Source: a virus
Reading direction: 5' to 3' (one strand)
IMG/VR virus record: IMGVR_UViG_3300042503_001307
Coordinates: 1-32,022 of that record
Length of the DNA: 32,022 bases
Shown: positions 1-22,478 of the stretch, one piece after another
Layout of the letters: each line of letters starts with the position of its first letter
Numbering within the stretch: position 1 is the stretch's first letter
Translations under genes and position numbers: made by a program
The notes under the pieces: generated by a model
What the model was told of the DNA's origin: nothing
Databases searched by the model: none
The model's input: only the letters and a program-made list of their open reading frames with translations

Positions 1-758
1 GACTGTTCCCGCTTGTCGGTAGTGGTCGCGCTCGGCAGCACCCCGTAGGTGGTTTCCAACGCGCGAAGGAAGAACTCTTGCACCTCGGCGCGGCTGCGAA
101 CGGGGGCAGCGGCGAAGCGGTTAGCCTCGGTCACGGCAGCGTCCTGCCCCGCCTTCCATCCGGCGATCACCTTCCGCACATCCGCCATGCGGTCGCCCAT
201 GTTGCGAGTGTGGCGCAGGGTGAACCCGGTGCGGGATGCGAGATGGTTGGCCGTCATGGTGTTGTTGCAGACCGTGCGGATGAACGCGCAGTCGCCCCGG
301 AGAGCCATCGTGCCGTCGAAGGCTTGCGCCAACAGCAGGTAACCCTTGGACAGGTCGCCACGGTTGCCGATCTCCACGGTGTCGCCCTTGAGGGAGCAGA
401 ACAGCGTCTTCCCCCCACGCAGCGTACCCGCGCTATCGACCTTGACGGTATCGTGCGCCCCGAACTCATACGCGAGGTCGAAGAAATCGCCCACGCTCAC
501 GGGGGAGTACTTCCGCGAGTGGAGGCCAAGGATCGCCCAATTGTCAGACCGGACGATGGCCTTGAACTCATCGGTGCTGACCTCGCCCATATCGCGGAGG
601 TTCACGGTGAGGTCGGTGGACGCGAGGATTTCCCAAGGCGCGACGATCTGCCGTGCCTCGGTCGGGGAGGGGTAGGTGTCGAGGGCCTGCGCGAGGCCGT
701 GCCAAGCCTTCGACTGGTAGACGGCGACGGTGTCGGACGATTCGATAAGGTGAGCCAT
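1..758 (-). CDS. DUF932 family phage/plasmid-like protein, C-terminus cut by window edge
   Basis: An open frame runs leftwards from the ATG at 758 to the window edge without a stop (252 complete codons). The protein starts MAHLIESSDTVAVYQSKAWH and contains an AWEILASTDL-like segment, a TVCNNTM motif and a DMADVRKVI-like helix; this order is typical of the DUF932 / TIGR03299 'phage/plasmid-like protein' family. The biochemical role of the family is not established. The start is chosen because a sigma70-like promoter (823-850) and a leader stem-loop lie just upstream and the family N-terminus fits. The gene is G+C-rich, unlike the late genes beyond 4 kb. Family members usually exceed 250 residues, so some of the C-terminus is missing. 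Confidence 0.85.
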   Translation of the reverse strand, partial: MAHLIESSDTVAVYQSKAWHGLAQALDTYPSPTEARQIVAPWEILASTDLTVNLRDMGEVSTDEFKAIVRSDNWAILGLHSRKYSPVSVGDFFDLAYEFGAHDTVKVDSAGTLRGGKTLFCSLKGDTVEIGNRGDLSKGYLLLAQAFDGTMALRGDCAFIRTVCNNTMTANHLASRTGFTLRHTRNMGDRMADVRKVIAGWKAGQDAAVTEANRFAAAPVRSRAEVQEFFLRALETTYGVLPSATTTDKREQ

Positions 759-800
759 GATGATGCGTTTCCTATGCCCGGAGATGGGTCGGGCAACCCT

Positions 801-850
801 GTAGCAGACTTGCTACCCCATCACTATACACCGGATTCCAGATGATGCAA
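801..850 (-). promoter_or_regulatory. Leftward sigma70-like promoter and 5' leader hairpin of the DUF932 gene
   Basis: On the minus strand TTGCAT (850-845) is followed after exactly 16 bases by TATAGT (828-823). The predicted start point near 816 coincides with a stem-loop, GTAGCA-agtc-TGCTAC (816-801), so the transcript would begin with a hairpin. A second, weaker GC-rich hairpin follows before the ATG at 758. Confidence 0.7.
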
Positions 851-1123
851 ATAGTGGACGAGATATTCCGCGAAATAAATCTTGATAAAAATTTTCAGAA
901 TTTCCTTGCATTGGTCGAAATGTGTGATCGGGAATCGATCACCTGGGCATCGCCCAGGAACAATTGCTAGCATCCAAAAACGACATGAGAATCAGCGAGA
1001 GTCAAGGAAAAACCAGAAAAAAATCGCAAAAACTGTCACGAAGCAGCAGCTCCTTTGGAGCAGCTGCTGCTTCTGCTGCTTCGTGACAGTTTCGCAAAAA
1101 TTTCACAATGTTAATTTTGCAAA
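851..1123. other. Gene-free stretch with tandem strong hairpins
   Basis: No convincing gene is seen here. The 882-1130 reading frame on the plus strand runs through inverted repeats and ends in an A/T-rich tract, so it is taken as a shadow. The stretch holds two back-to-back 7-bp hairpins (GTGATCG-ggaat-CGATCAC at 924-942 and CCTGGGC-atc-GCCCAGG at 942-958) and the long inverted repeat listed separately at 1030-1092. Positions 851-880 contain a degenerate copy of the AGATATTCC element found upstream of the 3.6-kb promoter. Confidence 0.6.
1030..1092 (-). repeat. Long inverted repeat (20-bp perfect arms), possible second terminator
   Basis: Arms AAACTGTCACGAAGCAGCAG (1030-1049) and its exact complement (1073-1092) flank a 23-base loop that itself contains CTCC-ttt-GGAG. 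The left arm plus loop can alternatively pair as AGCAGCAGCTCC with GGAG-CAGCTGCTGCT, so two folds compete. Read leftwards the stem is followed by a T-rich tract (about 1029-1005), so it may act as a second terminator behind the one at 1124-1168 and insulate the DUF932 gene. Confidence 0.75.
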
Positions 1124-1168
1124 AAAATAAAAAAAACCCCCCGCGCCCTTATCAGGCGGCAGGGGGCA
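1124..1168 (-). terminator. Intrinsic terminator of the leftward 1773-1184 operon
   Basis: Read on the minus strand, a G+C-rich hairpin (GCCCCCTGCCGCC ... GGGCGCGGGGGG) runs straight into a run of eight T residues. It lies just beyond the stop codon of the small membrane protein gene at 1184. Confidence 0.85.
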
Positions 1169-1183
1169 TCACCATTGTTTGGT

Positions 1184-1372
1184 TCAGTACGGATAGCCGT
1201 ACTTCCTCATGACGGTGAGGACGATTGCCCTCATCATCGGCACGGCACAGAGAACTGTACCGACGATGAGCGGGATCGGGTTGGTTGGTGGGACTAGCGC
1301 GATGAAGGTCAGGAGCAGGCCCGTGGTGAACGCGGAGAGGTAGACGAACGCAGGGGTGATGTGGTGTCGCAT
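1184..1372 (-). CDS. Small two-helix membrane protein
   Basis: A 62-residue protein starting MRHHITPAFVYLSAFTTGLL. The start is at 1372 because AAGGAG lies seven bases upstream and it sits two bases after the stop of the preceding gene; a longer frame upstream is out of place. Two hydrophobic segments (about residues 8-27 and 30-50) separated by a proline/asparagine turn, followed by a basic tail (VMRKYGYPY), suggest a small inner-membrane protein. It is the last gene before the terminator at 1124-1168. No family was recognised. Confidence 0.75.
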   Translation of the reverse strand: MRHHITPAFVYLSAFTTGLLLTFIALVPPTNPIPLIVGTVLCAVPMMRAIVLTVMRKYGYPY

Positions 1373-1374
1373 GG

Positions 1375-1773
1375 TTACTCCTTGACGAGGCTTGCGTCGA
1401 TGTACTGGGTGCAGTCCTTGGTGGGCGGGATCATCCGCACCGGATCTTCCATCAGAGCCTGCAAGAATGCGGACAGACGACGGGGCGAGAGGTGTTCGTA
1501 ACCCACGAACCGATCCCCCCACATGGCATACGCTGCCATGACGCGCTCGTTGAACAGGATGGCCTGATCGTCCGTCGCGGGAACGAAGTCAGCGGGGAAC
1601 TCAAAGCCGATCAACTGGAACTTCTTGCGGTCGGTGGTTTGCGGGGCCACTTCCCCGTCATACCGGATGGCTGCGACCATGTAGTTGCAACCTTCCTTAT
1701 CCATGATGTCGCTGATGACCTTGGTGCGGGTTTCGGACAGACGGGCGAAGATGCTTTCGATTTCGGGAGTCAT
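1375..1773 (-). CDS. Hypothetical early protein, 132 aa
   Basis: The product starts MTPEIESIFARLSETRTKVI and is a soluble, mixed alpha/beta protein. The start at 1773 is preceded by AAGGAATCACC, the same ribosome-binding context as several neighbours; the frame is open 25 codons further upstream but that part overlaps the promoter and leader hairpin. It is the first gene of a two-gene operon with the membrane protein at 1184. The middle of the protein (MVAAIRYDGEV, FELIGFEFPADF-like) shows no motif I can tie to a function. Confidence 0.8.
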   Translation of the reverse strand: MTPEIESIFARLSETRTKVISDIMDKEGCNYMVAAIRYDGEVAPQTTDRKKFQLIGFEFPADFVPATDDQAILFNERVMAAYAMWGDRFVGYEHLSPRRLSAFLQALMEDPVRMIPPTKDCTQYIDASLVKE

Positions 1774-1794
1774 GGTGATTCCTTGGGTGATGTT

Positions 1795-1848
1795 GTCGAG
1801 TAACGCACTCGACTGGGGGTACTGTAGCACGGGATTGGCCGGGGTCAA
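1795..1848 (-). promoter_or_regulatory. Leftward promoter plus 5'-terminal leader hairpin
   Basis: On the minus strand TTGACC (1848-1843), a 16-base spacer and TACAGT (1826-1821) form a sigma70-like promoter. The predicted start near 1814 is immediately followed by the stem-loop GTCGAG-N7-CTCGAC (1813-1795), then the ribosome-binding site and the ATG at 1773. Confidence 0.75.
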
Positions 1849-1878
1849 GTGGAATCCGAAGATTTCTTGGCCCCGGCC
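1837..1878. repeat. Inverted repeat overlapping the -35 box (copy 1)
   Basis: GGCCGGGGTCAAG (1837-1849) and CTTGGCCCCGGCC (1866-1878) pair over 13 bp with one G-T wobble. One arm contains the -35 element of the promoter at 1821-1848. A more perfect copy lies at 2294-2335. There is no T run after it, so it is not a standard terminator and could be an operator. Confidence 0.7.
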
Positions 1879-1885
1879 CTGGGGG

Positions 1886-2221
1886 TCAGACCGCAGCGAC
1901 GCGCTCCTTATACGACGCGCACCAATGGGTTGGGGTGTTCGCAGGGTAGTTCACGAACCCGCGCGTTTCCATCTGAATCAGAGCGGCCTCTGCGGCGAAC
2001 GGATCGTTCCACTTGTCCATTGCCTGCCGCCACTCTTCGTAGGGCATGACATTGAGCGAAAGAACCTTACAGACGGAGTTGACCTCGATCGTGCCGATGT
2101 GCATGGCTTCGCACCATTCCTTCGACGGCCCTTCGATGACGATCTCGCGGTCGAACCGCAGAGTCCATGTATCGCTACCGAACTCACGGACGAGTTGCTG
2201 CTGCCAGAGAACGAACTTCAT
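1886..2221 (-). CDS. Hypothetical early protein, 111 aa
   Basis: The product starts MKFVLWQQQLVREFGSDTWT. The ATG at 2221 is preceded by AAGGAATCATCACCA, a ribosome-binding context shared with the 2980 gene. A predicted helix (PYEEWRQAMDKWNDPFAAEA) and an aromatic C-terminus are visible; no family was recognised. It appears monocistronic, between its own promoter (2278-2305) and the inverted repeat at 1837-1878. Confidence 0.78.
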   Translation of the reverse strand: MKFVLWQQQLVREFGSDTWTLRFDREIVIEGPSKEWCEAMHIGTIEVNSVCKVLSLNVMPYEEWRQAMDKWNDPFAAEAALIQMETRGFVNYPANTPTHWCASYKERVAAV

Positions 2222-2251
2222 TGGTGATGATTCCTTGTCAGGGGTGATGTT

Positions 2252-2305
2252 GTCGAGCAACGCACTCGACTAGATGAAAGGTAACACGAAACTGGCCGGG
2301 GTCAA
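2252..2305 (-). promoter_or_regulatory. Leftward promoter plus 5'-terminal leader hairpin
   Basis: TTGACC (2305-2300), a 16-base spacer and TACCTT (2283-2278) on the minus strand. The predicted start near 2271 is directly followed by GTCGAG-N7-CTCGAC (2270-2252), nearly the same hairpin as the one at 1795-1813, then the ribosome-binding site of the 2221 gene. Confidence 0.72.
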
Positions 2306-2335
2306 GAAGTTTCTGAATATTTCTTGACCCCGGCC
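2294..2335. repeat. Perfect 15-bp inverted repeat overlapping the -35 box (copy 2)
   Basis: GGCCGGGGTCAAGAA (2294-2308) is the exact complement of TTCTTGACCCCGGCC (2321-2335), with a 12-base A+T-rich loop. Both arms carry a TTGACC, one being the -35 element of the leftward promoter. It lies just beyond the stop codon of the 2343 gene, so it could serve as operator, as terminator without a T run, or both. Confidence 0.8.
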
Positions 2336-2342
2336 TTGGGGG

Positions 2343-2594
2343 TCAGGGACGGGGGAAAGCAGCCATCACGCGCTCTACCCACTCCGGGGCAGGTTCGATG
2401 ATGTAGGCCGTTCCCGCGTCGATTGCTTCGAGGATCGACGGGCAGACTTCTTCGAAGGGGCAGTCGCAGGGAAGATCTTCCCCGTGCGACTCATGGACTT
2501 CCCCCCTGCCGTTGCAGCAGGGGCAGGAAGCGGAGGCGGTGAGTACCCATGCCTCGCCTCCGTTGGGCGTGAGGCGGAAGGTGGGTGGCTTCAT
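2343..2594 (-). CDS. Small cysteine-rich protein with a DnaJ-type CxxCxGxG motif
   Basis: An 83-residue protein with ATG at 2594 preceded by GGAGGT and overlapping the previous stop as ATGA. It contains CPCCNGRGEVHES near residues 24-36 and then a CDCPFEEVC cluster, which together look like a zinc-binding site related to the CxxCxGxG repeats of DnaJ-type proteins. The C-terminus is short and helical. The rest matches nothing I recognise. It is translationally coupled to the 2980 gene. Confidence 0.78.
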   Translation of the reverse strand: MKPPTFRLTPNGGEAWVLTASASCPCCNGRGEVHESHGEDLPCDCPFEEVCPSILEAIDAGTAYIIEPAPEWVERVMAAFPRP

Positions 2595-2980
2595 GCCGCA
2601 CCTCCGATCTCGACTGCGTACCCGTGCTCCAAGGCTTCCACGAAGCCGTCCCATGCCTCCCGTTGGGACGGGGAAAGTTCGCCGCGCGGAGCGGCATCGG
2701 CTGCGATCATGCCGATCAGCCGTTGGGCATCCGCAGGGCTGCGGTACTTGTCTCCGGCAAACTTCCGGATTGTGGCGCAGACGGTCGGGTCGGGATGAAT
2801 CTCCATCCAAACCGTGGCAGTTCCCGACGAACGAGACTGGAAGGAAAGCCGGGTCGTGTTGCCCCAAGGGGCAGTTTCGTCGCCCAACGAGAACGAGAGG
2901 TAGATGGTTCCGGATGGGGCCGAAATCTCGGCATCGATCCAGTAGACGAGTCGGGCGGTTTGCCAAGTTTCAACTTTCAT
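2591..2980 (-). CDS. Hypothetical early protein, 129 aa
   Basis: The product starts MKVETWQTARLVYWIDAEIS and shows beta-rich N-terminal strands followed by a helical C-terminal half (SPADAQRLIGMIAADAA, REAWDGFVEALEHG). The ATG at 2980 follows AAAGGAATCATCACC. Its promoter is at 3003-3030 with a very short leader. The next gene (2594) overlaps its stop by four bases. No known family was recognised. Confidence 0.8.
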   Translation of the reverse strand: MKVETWQTARLVYWIDAEISAPSGTIYLSFSLGDETAPWGNTTRLSFQSRSSGTATVWMEIHPDPTVCATIRKFAGDKYRSPADAQRLIGMIAADAAPRGELSPSQREAWDGFVEALEHGYAVEIGGAA

Positions 2981-3002
2981 GGTGATGATTCCTTTCAGGT
3001 GG

Positions 3003-3030
3003 ACTATGCCACCGATTTCAACAGAGTCAA
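3003..3030 (-). promoter_or_regulatory. Leftward sigma70-like promoter for the 2980-2343 operon
   Basis: TTGACT (3030-3025), 16-base spacer and CATAGT (3008-3003) on the minus strand. GGTGG-catagt-CCACC places the -10 box within a small hairpin-forming sequence. The leader is only about 16 bases long and lacks the separate 5' hairpin seen at the sister promoters. Confidence 0.65.
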
Positions 3031-3050
3031 GGCGTTTCAGACGATTTTTC

Positions 3051-3089
3051 GGGGAGGGGGAGGGGGGCCGAAGCCCCCCATCCTCCCCG
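3051..3089 (-). terminator. G/C hairpin downstream of the 3098 gene
   Basis: Read leftwards, GGGGAGGATGGGGGGC-ttcg-GCCCCCCC...CTCCCC forms a long G+C stem with a stable TTCG loop, placed directly after the stop codon of the 3580-3098 gene. There is no T run after the stem, so termination efficiency is uncertain. Confidence 0.55.
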
Positions 3090-3097
3090 CTAGAGGA

Positions 3098-3580
3098 TCA
3101 GACCTCCACCCCTGCGAGGGCGTGGATGTTGCTCACCTTGATGGTGAGGACTTCGGGGCGATCCCCATCGAGGATCGCCGCGCGCTTGCTCGGCGTGAGC
3201 ATCGACAGGTAGTCCTCCCGGCTCACTTCGGCCCCATCGACCATGTAGGTCGAGCGGGCAGACTGGGGAACGCCATCGATGGTAACGCGCAGGTACTCCG
3301 CGCCCTTATGGGTGATCAGCCAAGGGTGGATGGCCCACTCGCCCCATGCGAGAGGCTGCACCTCGCCGCGTTCCCCGGAGGCGATCGCCAACTGGACGCT
3401 GGCAAGGTTGCCGAACTCGACTCCGGTACGGACGACCATGGTGGTGCGCTTGGAGAGGCTGCGGCCCTTATGGGCAGCGGCTGGTTCGGTCGAGGTGGTG
3501 TACTCGATCCGCACGAATTGGCCCTTGCGGGAGCGCAGGGTATCGATCATGCGGGAGGCAGATGCGGAAGGCTGAAACAT
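3098..3580 (-). CDS. Hypothetical early protein, 160 aa
   Basis: The product starts MFQPSASASRMIDTLRSRKG and is basic in its first third, with AHKGRSLSKRTTMVVRTGVE followed by beta-rich sequence (EWAIHPWLITHKGAEYLRVT) and a helical stretch (SREDYLSMLTPSKRAAILDG). The start at 3580 is supported by a purine-rich site (AGAGGATCACCACC) and the promoter at 3635-3662. No family was recognised; the basic N-terminal segment would suit nucleic-acid binding, but that is a guess. Confidence 0.8.
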   Translation of the reverse strand: MFQPSASASRMIDTLRSRKGQFVRIEYTTSTEPAAAHKGRSLSKRTTMVVRTGVEFGNLASVQLAIASGERGEVQPLAWGEWAIHPWLITHKGAEYLRVTIDGVPQSARSTYMVDGAEVSREDYLSMLTPSKRAAILDGDRPEVLTIKVSNIHALAGVEV

Positions 3581-3604
3581 GGTGGTGATCCTCTAGCGTG
3601 CGTC

Positions 3605-3662
3605 AGTCGATCACGACGATCGACTTACATACACACTATACATCGGATTCGGGCAGAGTCAA
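3605..3662 (-). promoter_or_regulatory. Leftward promoter plus leader hairpin of the 3580 gene
   Basis: TTGACT (3662-3657), 16-base spacer, TATAGT (3640-3635) on the minus strand, the best match in the left block. About three bases after the predicted start near 3628 lies the stem-loop AGTCGATC-N5-GATCGACT (3625-3605). Confidence 0.8.
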
Positions 3663-3733
3663 GTACTGGAACAGATATTCCTGCACGAAGTTGTGTTTCG
3701 TGAAAGTCAAGTACGGGATCAGATATTCCGGCA
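3658..3733. repeat. 28-bp imperfect tandem repeat with hairpin between copies
   Basis: Copies at 3658-3685 and 3706-3733 match at 25 of 28 positions and share GTCAAGTAC, then AGATATTCC. Between them CACGAA-N7-TTCGTG (3684-3702) forms a hairpin. The first copy overlaps the -35 box of the leftward promoter; a degenerate copy sits upstream of the DUF932 promoter near 847-875. This looks like an activator or repressor site. Confidence 0.65.
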
Positions 3734-3766
3734 AAAAGTTTTTTTCGAATATTTGTTTTTTTTTTC

Positions 3767-3794
3767 TTGACTTGTCCGAACAGTATGGTATACT
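3767..3794 (+). promoter_or_regulatory. Rightward sigma70-like promoter with no gene behind it
   Basis: TTGACT (3767-3772), 16-base spacer, TATACT (3789-3794). The boxes and spacing are the same as at the gp32 promoter. The next rightward gene starts only at 5346, beyond a terminator, so the product may be an RNA. Confidence 0.7.
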
Positions 3795-3800
3795 TGGGTC

Positions 3801-4067
3801 CCCTCCCTGGGATCCGGGGGCTAGCTCGTTCCAAAAAAACCAAAAAGACCCCCCCCCCCTTCCTAAAAAATAGGGTCCCCCCTCAGAGACTCCCAAAAAT
3901 AAAAAGGGACCCCCTAAATAATTTCATGGGTCCCCTTCCAAAGATTCCCCCTTTTATTAAGAAGGTACTCTTTTGGTTCTTCTTTATTTTTTTCTCTATA
4001 TGTTACTTGTTACCAATAGTAAAAAATTTAACAAAATAAAAAACCCTCATTTCTGAGGGTTCTTTTT
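3801..4067 (+). ncRNA. Candidate orphan RNA with repeated GGGTCCCC elements
   Basis: The stretch lies between a sigma70-like promoter and an intrinsic terminator. No gene is evident: the one rightward frame (3767-4039) would have to start inside the promoter. GGGTCCCC occurs at 3796-3803, 3873-3880 and 3928-3935 and its complement at 3906-3913, so several mutually exclusive 7-bp stems are possible. An 11-C run lies at 3849-3859. The exact RNA ends and any function are inferred only. Confidence 0.4.
4042..4067. terminator. Bidirectional intrinsic terminator (copy 1)
   Basis: AACCCTCA-tttc-TGAGGGTT with T runs on both strands. It follows the stop of the leftward 4419-4081 gene and would also end rightward transcripts from the 3767-3794 promoter. 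It lies inside a 44-bp exact repeat. Confidence 0.88.
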
Positions 4068-4080
4068 TATTTATTTTTTG

Positions 4081-4419
4081 TCAAGGATATGCCATAGTTA
4101 ATCTATAATTACCATTTCTTAGTTTTTTAATAGAATGCCATCCTGTTTCGCCCTGTATATTAAGTTTGTCTGTAACAGTCTCTCCGTCATAAGATGTTGC
4201 TGATTCCAAATCATCTTCTAATTTAGCTTCCAAATGTCTGGCAAATGGATCTGATTCGTGAAAAATAGTTTCACCTTTATTTTTTAATTCAAGATATCTT
4301 CTTTGAATCGGATCTTCTGGATCTTTTTTGTTTGCTTCCAAAATAGCTCTTAAATTATTATTTTCTTCTTGAAGCTTTTGAATCTGACGCTTTAAGTAAA
4401 GATTTTCTGTAAAAGACAT
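4081..4419 (-). CDS. Coiled-coil N-terminus protein, 112 aa
   Basis: The product starts MSFTENLYLKRQIQKLQEEN and continues as a leucine-zipper-like helix to about residue 30, followed by a charged helical segment and a C-terminal part with GETGWHSIKKLRNGNYRL. The N-terminal coiled coil resembles those of the genes at 4951-5313 and 8979-9686, whose remaining parts differ. A TATAGATA box ends four bases before the ATG, consistent with late expression. Function unknown; a virion-surface or fibre-associated protein is a reasonable guess. Confidence 0.78.
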   Translation of the reverse strand: MSFTENLYLKRQIQKLQEENNNLRAILEANKKDPEDPIQRRYLELKNKGETIFHESDPFARHLEAKLEDDLESATSYDGETVTDKLNIQGETGWHSIKKLRNGNYRLTMAYP

Positions 4420-4449
4420 ATACTATCTATAAATTTTAACAAAATAAAA

Positions 4450-4475
4450 AACCCTCATTTCTGAGGGTTCTTTTT
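4450..4475. terminator. Bidirectional intrinsic terminator (copy 2)
   Basis: Same AACCCTCA-tttc-TGAGGGTT hairpin with flanking A and T runs as at 4042-4067. It follows the stop of the leftward gene at 4496. Confidence 0.88.
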
Positions 4476-4495
4476 TATCAAAATATAATTAAATA

Positions 4496-6110: not shown

Positions 6111-6125
6111 TAATAAAAAAATAAT

Positions 6126-6154
6126 TTGACAAAAAGACTCATTATTGATATGCT
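6126..6154 (+). promoter_or_regulatory. Possible sigma70-like promoter in a late intergenic gap
   Basis: TTGACA (6126-6131), 17-base spacer, TATGCT (6149-6154). Downstream are a small stem (TCGC-tgtgtag-GCGA) and AAGAAA-ttttg-TTTCTT. It could drive the 6214 gene or a very short RNA. Confidence 0.4.
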
Positions 6155-6213
6155 TCGCTGTGTAGGCGATCAACAAGAAATTTTGTTTCTTTATTAAATT
6201 CATACATATTACT

Positions 6214-16819: not shown

Positions 16820-16894
16820 ATTCCCGTAGCTCAGTTGGATTAGAGCAAGTGCCTTCTAAGCACTAGGTCGTAGGTTCGAATCCTATCGGGAATG
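16820..16894 (+). tRNA. tRNA-Arg (anticodon UCU)
   Basis: Full cloverleaf: acceptor ATTCCCG/CGGGAAT, D-stem GCTC/GAGC, anticodon stem AGTGC/GCACT with loop CTTCTAA, T-stem and TTCGAAT loop. CCA is not encoded. It reads AGA, which is very common in the phage late genes. Confidence 0.95.
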
Positions 16895-16895
16895 C

Positions 16896-16966
16896 TGAAG
16901 ATTGGTGTAACGGTAGCACAACTGACTCTGACTCAGTTTGTCCTAGTTCGAATCTAGGATCTTCAA
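16896..16966 (+). tRNA. tRNA-Gln (anticodon CUG)
   Basis: Acceptor TGAAGAT/ATCTTCA, anticodon stem AACTGA/TCAGTT with loop CTCTGAC, T-arm CCTAG-TTCGAAT-CTAGG. It would read CAG. The gene begins one base after tRNA-Arg. Confidence 0.93.
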
Positions 16967-16967
16967 T

Positions 16968-17039
16968 GAGGATGTAACTCAATGGCAGAGTGTGACCCTT
17001 CCAAGGTCAATGTTGCGGGTTCAAGTCCCGTCGTCCTCT
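16968..17039 (+). tRNA. tRNA-Gly (anticodon UCC)
   Basis: Acceptor GAGGATG/CGTCCTC with one G-T pair, anticodon stem TGACC/GGTCA with loop CTTCCAA, T-arm CGGG-TTCAAGT-CCCG. It reads GGA, the preferred glycine codon of the late genes. Confidence 0.93.
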
Positions 17040-18187: not shown

Positions 18188-18189
18188 TT

Positions 18190-18262
18190 GGGTAGGTAGT
18201 TCAATCGGCAGAACCTTCCGCTTATAACGGTAGATGTGTGGGTTCGATCCCCACCCTACTCA
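18190..18262 (+). tRNA. tRNA-Ile (anticodon UAU)
   Basis: Acceptor GGGTAGG/CCTACTC with one G-T pair, D-stem GTTC/GAAC, anticodon loop CTTATAA, T-arm GTGGG-TTCGATC-CCCAC. The anticodon stem TTCCG/CGGTA has one T-T mismatch. UAU would read AUA, a codon that is frequent in the late genes and rare in many hosts. Confidence 0.88.
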
Positions 18263-18276
18263 TTGGAGATATAAGT

Positions 18277-21417: not shown

Positions 21418-22478
21418 TATCTAGCTATAAAATATAAACTTTGTGCTATTGTTCCTGTTGAACCACTACTCTTAGCAAATAATTTATTAGTATTTGAAAT
21501 TTCTAAAAATATTTCATCTCCCTGAGCTAGAGGATAGCCATTAGTAAAACCTGATGATTCCCCAATAAATAAAAATTGAGTATTAGAGGCAAGAGATTTA
21601 ATATTAACTCCGCGCTGGCATGTAAATCCTGGACTAAACTGAACAATAGATTGAGTTAAGCCTAATAATCCACTTATAAACGATGTTGGTAAGGTAAAGG
21701 TATCTACTTTAACCTTAGCAGTACCGTCAGTTAAAAGAGTTTCAATTGTTGGAATATGAGCAGCAAAAGAGGCTCCAGAAATTCCAGAATTTTTTATAGT
21801 ATTAAGAAGTGATTCTAAAGTTACTCCAGTTATACTTACAGGAGAACCAGTCGAACCTTGTATGAATAGAGCAGTGGCGTTAGAGTTTGTTACGCCAACA
21901 GTAGAACTAATATTTGCTGTCAATGAAATTGGAGCACCTAATACTTGAACCATTAAGGCATTAGATCCCCCACCATTAGTTATCCCGGCCAGTAAATTGG
22001 TGCTAGGATCAAATAAACGAACATAAGTTCCACTAGTAGCACCATCTGGACCAACACCAATAGCCTTTATCTTGTAATTTCCGCTTGTTAAATTAGTAGA
22101 AAAAGCTTGTGTATCAGTATAAATGCTAGGTAATAATGTATTTCCTGCATTGTCTTGTGTAATGACTGCATTATTGAAACCAGTACCATTTACTTTTAGT
22201 GCAGTTGTGCTATAATTCACTACCTGAATGGATCCTGCTGTTCCTCCACCAGTTACTGTAGCTCTGGTATTTAATGTAACACCAGTAGATGCTAAGTATG
22301 TTGGTAATGGGCTGCTAGATGAAACTCTGGTAGCATCTGATGTTCCTCCAAATACAACTTTAGTCAATTGAACATGCGAAGTAGCACCATAAATATCAAT
22401 GACAAAATCAGTTGCAATAGTGGCGGTAAGACCACCAGCAATACCTACATTCAAATTGGGATCAGTATTATCAGGCAT
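21417..22478 (-). CDS. Beta-rich virion-like protein, 353 aa
   Basis: The product starts MPDNTDPNLNVGIAGGLTAT. It is threonine/serine/glycine-rich with repeated short strands (SGNYKIKAIGVGPDGATSGT; SITGVTLESLLNTIKNSG) and ends in FIAR. This composition is typical of tail-fibre, whisker or decoration proteins. GGAGAAAAA precedes the ATG. It diverges from gp33, with about 40 bases between the two starts, and is followed directly by the 448-residue gene. Confidence 0.72.
   Translation of the reverse strand: MPDNTDPNLNVGIAGGLTATIATDFVIDIYGATSHVQLTKVVFGGTSDATRVSSSSPLPTYLASTGVTLNTRATVTGGGTAGSIQVVNYSTTALKVNGTGFNNAVITQDNAGNTLLPSIYTDTQAFSTNLTSGNYKIKAIGVGPDGATSGTYVRLFDPSTNLLAGITNGGGSNALMVQVLGAPISLTANISSTVGVTNSNATALFIQGSTGSPVSITGVTLESLLNTIKNSGISGASFAAHIPTIETLLTDGTAKVKVDTFTLPTSFISGLLGLTQSIVQFSPGFTCQRGVNIKSLASNTQFLFIGESSGFTNGYPLAQGDEIFLEISNTNKLFAKSSGSTGTIAQSLYFIAR

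Follow-up and report, generated by a model that had tools for sequence, protein, structure and literature searches.

A compact transcription unit at a G+C switch in a T4-like phage genome

The DNA that we analyzed (the window) is a 32-kb piece (32,022 nt) of a T4-like phage genome, held as a virus record in IMG/VR. Its gp32 matches cyanophage gp32 with an identity of up to ~67%. The G+C content is 56 to 60% in the first 3.7 kb and mostly 24 to 46% in the remainder; at the unit described here it drops from ~57% to ~34%. A sequence-only reading had noted this switch together with a promoter, a C run, and an intrinsic terminator, and we found all four, although the terminator (4042 to 4070 within the feature listed below) proved to be bidirectional. 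It had also described about 270 bases without a gene, which was wrong, since a conserved small gene occupies positions 3926 to 4039. What the earlier reader saw is a real conserved transcription unit, misread as gene-free. The features of the locus are as follows.

3635 to 3662, minus strand: divergent promoter (TTGACT-N16-TATAGT) driving the leftward genes of the G+C-rich block; a neighbor, outside the unit
3767 to 3794, plus strand: early (sigma-70-like) promoter (TTGACT-N16-TATACT) with 10 of 12 consensus bases and a TG before the −10 element
3796 to 3815, plus strand: element 1, a hairpin (GGGTCCCC-TCCCT-GGGATCC; −12.3 kcal/mol fold) covering the discriminator and the expected start at ~3801
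3816 to 3859, plus strand: GGGGGCTAG, then an insertion and the C11 run (3849 to 3859), as aligned with the relative L231
3873 to 3880, plus strand: element 2 (GGGTCCCC), identical in the relatives G002 and L231
3906 to 3914, plus strand: element 3 (GGGACCCCC), 5′ arm of the predicted start-codon hairpin, pairing with 3928 to 3934
3913 to 3920, plus strand: late promoter octamer CCTAAATA, a CTAAATA variant, in the hairpin loop and 5 nt upstream of the ATG
3926 to 4039, plus strand: small gene of 37 codons (37 aa; MGPLPKIPPFIKKVLFWFFFIFFSICYLLPIVKNLTK) with homologues in four IMG/VR phages
3928 to 3935, plus strand: element 4 (GGGTCCCC), 3′ arm of the hairpin, overlapping the G of the start codon and codons 2 to 4
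about 4038 to 4070, both strands: bidirectional intrinsic terminator (AACCCTCATTTCTGAGGGTT), T-rich on both sides and conserved in L231
4081 to 4419, minus strand: convergent leftward gene, a neighbor that shares the terminator with the unit

We searched IMG/VR for relatives with protein and pattern scans and obtained six contigs: G001 (3300007735_000657), G002 (3300032322_001069), G003 (3300045417_000161), G004 (3300007735_000797), G009 (3300011113_000491), and L231 (3300022752_000167). The matches listed in a scan for pairs of GGGTCCCC came mainly from G+C-rich genomes, and it was longer patterns that yielded the informative relatives. T4-type genes for terminase, portal, protease, and capsid are found on related contigs, with ~46 to 60% identity to those of Synechococcus phage S-CRM01; psbA and psbD gave no match in the ~400 kb of sequence examined. 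Among named phages, none matched the small protein or its 554-aa neighbor and none covered most of the DNA of the locus, and no relatives of the two flanking leftward genes were found in IMG/VR.

Alignment of the window with L231 showed similarity from the −35 box through the terminator, with unrelated flanks on either side. The L231 promoter reads TTGACT-N17-TACACT, with a 17-nt spacer, and all sequence upstream of it differs. Judged by this alignment, the promoter, repeats, and terminator are one conserved unit, the make-up of which is kept in L231. The earlier reading had proposed that the repeats should be kept where the promoter is kept, and this held in L231, the one relative to which it applies. 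Because the terminator is bidirectional and a 96% identical copy of it lies behind the next leftward gene (4428 to 4478; 4449 to 4478 for the terminator), it also ends the leftward gene at 4081 to 4419. On the other side of the unit, two 41-nt direct repeats (83% identity; AGTCAAGTAC..AGATATTCC) lie at 3657 to 3745, by the divergent promoter and upstream of the leftward genes. Similar GATATTC motifs occur near 860 and in G004; these sequences are possibly operators.

The unit contains a conserved small gene and an even more conserved leader

The small gene has homologues in G001, G002, G004, and L231 and is thus conserved in five phages including the window, with 17 residues invariant among the four homologues. 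Comparison of the window with G001 over 34 codons gave 12 synonymous and 10 nonsynonymous codon changes, and 18 of the 31 base changes were at third positions (P = 0.004); the corresponding excess between G002 and G004 was nonsignificant (P = 0.12). The coding signal rests on ~34 codons. The L231 gene carries a 12-nt insertion that keeps the frame. The product is probably a single-pass membrane protein, as suggested by its one hydrophobic span. It is a gene that standard annotation would miss.

The 72 nt upstream of the ATG differ at no position in G002 and at one in L231 (99 to 100% identity across the three phages), and 17 of the 111 nt of the open reading frame differ between the window and G002 (Fisher P = 0.00014, leader versus open reading frame). 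By this count the leader is more conserved than the gene, a near-identity that could stem in part from recent recombination rather than from selection.

The three direct copies of GGGTCCCC that had been reported were found at 3796, 3873, and 3928, all inside 3796 to 3935, and 0 of 100 shuffles reached three. The fourth copy, reported as a complement, matches over 7 bases only (GGGACCC at 3906). Together they supply four copies of the palindromic core GGGWCCC in 165 nt (3796, 3873, 3906, and 3928), with none elsewhere in the window, a density reached in 0 of 20,000 local shuffles of either type (40,000 in total). Not all of these copies lie within the RNA as had been supposed: the first occupies about −5 to +3 relative to the expected start (~3801), downstream of the −10 box, and is therefore largely outside any RNA. 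The sequence of element 1 differs in L231. In L231, GGGGGCTAG and the C run are adjacent (GGGGGCTAGCCCCC), so that the C run can serve as the 3′ arm of a G5:C5 hairpin, and GGGGCTAGCCC is present in G004 too.

A predicted hairpin would hide the start codon and enclose a late promoter

Mutually exclusive 7-bp stems can form among the repeats, as had been noted. GGGACCC (3906 to 3912) and GGGTCCC (3928 to 3934) were predicted to pair with a probability of 0.94 in the window and 0.96 in L231, as an inverted repeat of which one arm lies on the initiation region and takes in the last base of the AUG plus the two codons that follow. The third copy of GGGTCCCC doubles as codons 2 to 4 of the gene. 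Sequence variation in the leader is too slight for covariation to bear on the pairing. Neither the GGGACCC arm nor a clear late promoter precedes the small gene in G001 and G004, which leaves three of the five homologues with the hairpin arrangement. A bistable switch between stems 2:3 and 3:4 was considered and dropped, since pairing of elements 2 and 3 before element 4 is made was predicted in the window (0.83) but not in L231 (0.05).

In T4, late transcription starts ~6 nt past TATAAATA. The corresponding position here is the A of the AUG, so an RNA from the late promoter, which lies 3′ of the upstream arm, would lack that arm. The late promoters of T4 and of cyanophages are TATAAATA and NATAAATA, respectively (PMC2984593), and the same octamer stands upstream of late structural genes in these phages, with CCTAAATA close to the cyanophage type.

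Several late genes are controlled by hairpins in this way, namely, e, soc, 49, I-TevI, and segB of T4 and mobE of Aeh1: the initiation region is hidden by a hairpin in the early read-through RNA, whereas a shorter RNA, started from a late promoter located in the hairpin's upstream part, is translated (PMC3014915, PMC2988022). The unit described here shares with these genes the predicted hairpin over the start and the late promoter inside it. It differs in that the AUG that would be hidden has no Shine-Dalgarno sequence and the late RNA would be leaderless, in that a repeated palindromic heptamer supplies both arms, and in that the gene encodes a new 37-aa protein.

Late promoters lie 5 to 6 nt from start codons across the lineage

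We then looked for N[A/C]TAAATA before the ATG of open reading frames of at least 40 aa in six records (the window, G001 to G004, and G009). The distance was 5 nt in 28 cases and 6 nt in 12, and the genes concerned include gp6-, gp13-, and gp25-like structural genes. Anagram motifs gave ~1 case per position, so that about 2 would be expected against the 40 found. In 50-kb samples of other phages, the octamer mostly lay farther from the ATG, at 16 to 25 nt in S-CRM01, 14 to 29 nt in DSL-LC03, 20 to 32 nt in Syn9, and 12 to 35 nt in T4 (mostly 12 to 30 nt overall). The 5- to 6-nt spacing suggests, as its simplest reading, that the late mRNAs are leaderless. No report of leaderless late translation in T4-like phages was found in the literature that we searched.

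There seems to be an even chance that the pattern is general, i.e., that a T4-like lineage related to cyanophages shifted its late promoters onto start codons, giving leaderless late mRNAs for baseplate and neck genes among others, with start-codon hairpins around such promoters, like the one at 3906 to 3935, replacing Shine-Dalgarno masking as the early/late translation switch. If true, this would bear on how the phages use host ribosomes and on the type of host infected, and the spacing may be a more important result than the unit itself.

Cassettes are exchanged at GGRTCCCC elements

Units containing GGRTCCCC lie between small late genes across these genomes, often in tandem and with a late promoter behind them. 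Their stem-loops have 4- to 7-bp stems, and the forward strand shows no U tract. In the present unit an early promoter (3767 to 3794) is joined to the stem-loop, whereas most other copies are joined to late promoters. The number of units varies, L223 having one where G009 has two. Many of the cassette genes start with a short motif such as MLSFKQYL, which we take to resemble the capsid-targeting start of T4 internal proteins. An MKLSK cassette is 94 to 98% identical among G001, G004, and G009, yet is followed by a different gene in each, and the identity ends at the element. Apart from the insertion, the open reading frames of L231 and the window differ at 3 of 111 positions; between L231 and G002 the leader-and-ORF block is only 86% identical, in contrast to 90 to 98% for the neighboring genes. 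By these identities the L231 cassette is closer to that of the window than to that of G002.

Promoter-early stem-loop cassettes (PeSLs) of T4-like phages have been described (Arbiol 2010 and Comeau 2014, cited in PMC4503421). As far as that citing paper portrays them, the likeness lies in a promoter and a stem-loop that occupy short spacers among small genes, cluster in a variable region, and mark the points where genes are exchanged. The elements here differ from that portrayal in being coupled to a late-type promoter (N[A/C]TAAATA), in having a stem-loop without the U tract expected of an intrinsic terminator, and in forming tandem units of variable number.

Two further observations concern the same elements. 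In G003 (L168), comparison of positions 1691 to 1829 with 2459 to 2563 shows that the beginning of the MKSFRSF gene has a truncated second copy, 94% identical along 106 nt, directly behind an array of GGRTCCCC elements and late promoters, which is another trace of recombination at the element. The G002 contig ends, and the G003 contig starts, at or near the C run of the element; assemblies of these phages probably often break there.

A self-contained late-gene cassette as the preferred reading

We propose that the locus is a self-contained, exchangeable late-gene cassette, and we put the probability of this reading at roughly 0.6. The early promoter could transcribe through the structured leader into the small gene. 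In that early RNA, GGGACCC would pair with GGGUCCC, hiding the start codon and keeping the gene silent. Late in infection, CCTAAATA within the hairpin would start an RNA at, or ~1 base from, the AUG; having no 5′ arm, this RNA would be translated without a leader. The bidirectional terminator would close the unit, and the GGRTCCCC repeats, placed by late promoters and between late genes along the border of the G+C-rich island, would act as joints for cassette exchange. What the DNA itself shows is the gene, a conserved unit, complementary arms on either side of the late-promoter motif, the lineage-wide spacing, and the cassette exchange; from these we infer two active promoters, a hairpin that represses translation, leaderless late mRNAs, and a product located in a membrane. 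Such a unit would be a small natural switch between early and late expression that moves from phage to phage as a module.

The strongest competitor, though we consider it unlikely, is that the GGRTCCCC repeats serve chiefly as recombination joints, or are simple tandem repeats that spread with late-gene cassettes, the hairpins and the masking of the start being by-products without a regulatory role. Cassette breakpoints at the repeats, the differing unit number in G009 and L223, and hairpin arms that are uncompensated between copies all agree with it. Against this, the leader between the repeats is nearly constant in three phages while the open reading frame varies, the arms are positioned exactly around the late promoter and start codon, and the repeats adjoin late promoters rather than being placed at random. 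The proposal of the sequence-only reading, an orphan regulatory RNA (3801 to ~4067) acting in trans through GGGTCCC stems, with the small open reading frame incidental, appears less probable still. The promoter-to-terminator unit is conserved, its leader is better conserved than its open reading frame, and the strand folds better than shuffles (z = −2.2), as such an RNA would predict. An orphan RNA should nevertheless lack conserved coding sequence, and we rejected it because the reading frame is conserved, with third-position changes and an in-frame insertion; in addition, the stem contains a late promoter and a start codon, the gene is kept without the leader in G001 and G004, and an Rfam covariance-model search of the window returned only four tRNAs and no family at the unit. 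A start-hiding hairpin with a late-promoter module, of a type that recurs at several borders between cassettes, explains the repeats better, and nothing was found in favor of the protein decoy or replication element that had also been suggested.

We think it quite improbable that the repeats work as leftward terminators, insulating the G+C-rich island against the late genes. T-rich tracts do follow some minus-strand copies (3890 to 3866), and the reverse-strand hairpins are equally or more stable. The tract occurs at only some copies, however, the neighboring late genes of G004 and G009 run away from the island and call for no leftward terminator there, and a strong terminator is already present at 4038 to 4070. 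An assembly chimera, two genomes joined at the C run with the repeats as a by-product, might be suspected from the contig ends of G002 and G003 there and from the abrupt change in G+C content. We rejected it as scarcely credible: the junction is found again in G004 and L231, the island lies within the G009 contig, and one gene is shared (47% identity, E = 4e-19) by the left blocks of the window and G004, which also carry the same 23-bp terminator.

The G+C-rich island and other elements

The G+C switch is also seen in G004 and L231, and in G009 the G+C-rich block lies inside the contig (~67 to 82 kb of 123 kb); the switch is therefore a genuine feature of these genomes, with the repeats at its edge. 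The feature is a G+C-rich island (about 50 to 67%; about 14 kb in G009) of small genes inside an otherwise A+T-rich T4-like genome. It spans 1 to 3766 of the window, 66.7 to 82 kb of G009, 1 to 3290 of G004, and 1 to 2700 of L231. The portion in the window includes a gene similar to one of many actinophages (phrog_1221), which we take to be DUF932-like.

Elsewhere in the window, four tRNA genes (Arg-tct, Gln-ctg, Gly-tcc, and Ile-tat) lie at 16820 to 17039 and 18189 to 18263, three of which directly abut one another. Another conserved intergenic element (GACAAAACTCAAGACCTTCGATAYRCTTCGCTGTGTAGGCGATCAACAAGAAAT..TTGT; 80 to 94% identity) was found at 6122 to 6196 of the window, 763 to 842 of G001, 535 to 584 of G003, and 4017 to 4087 of L231, and in two copies in G002 (77238 to 77308 and 21751 to 21812). 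With its complementary ends and UUCG hairpin, it may be a small structured RNA.
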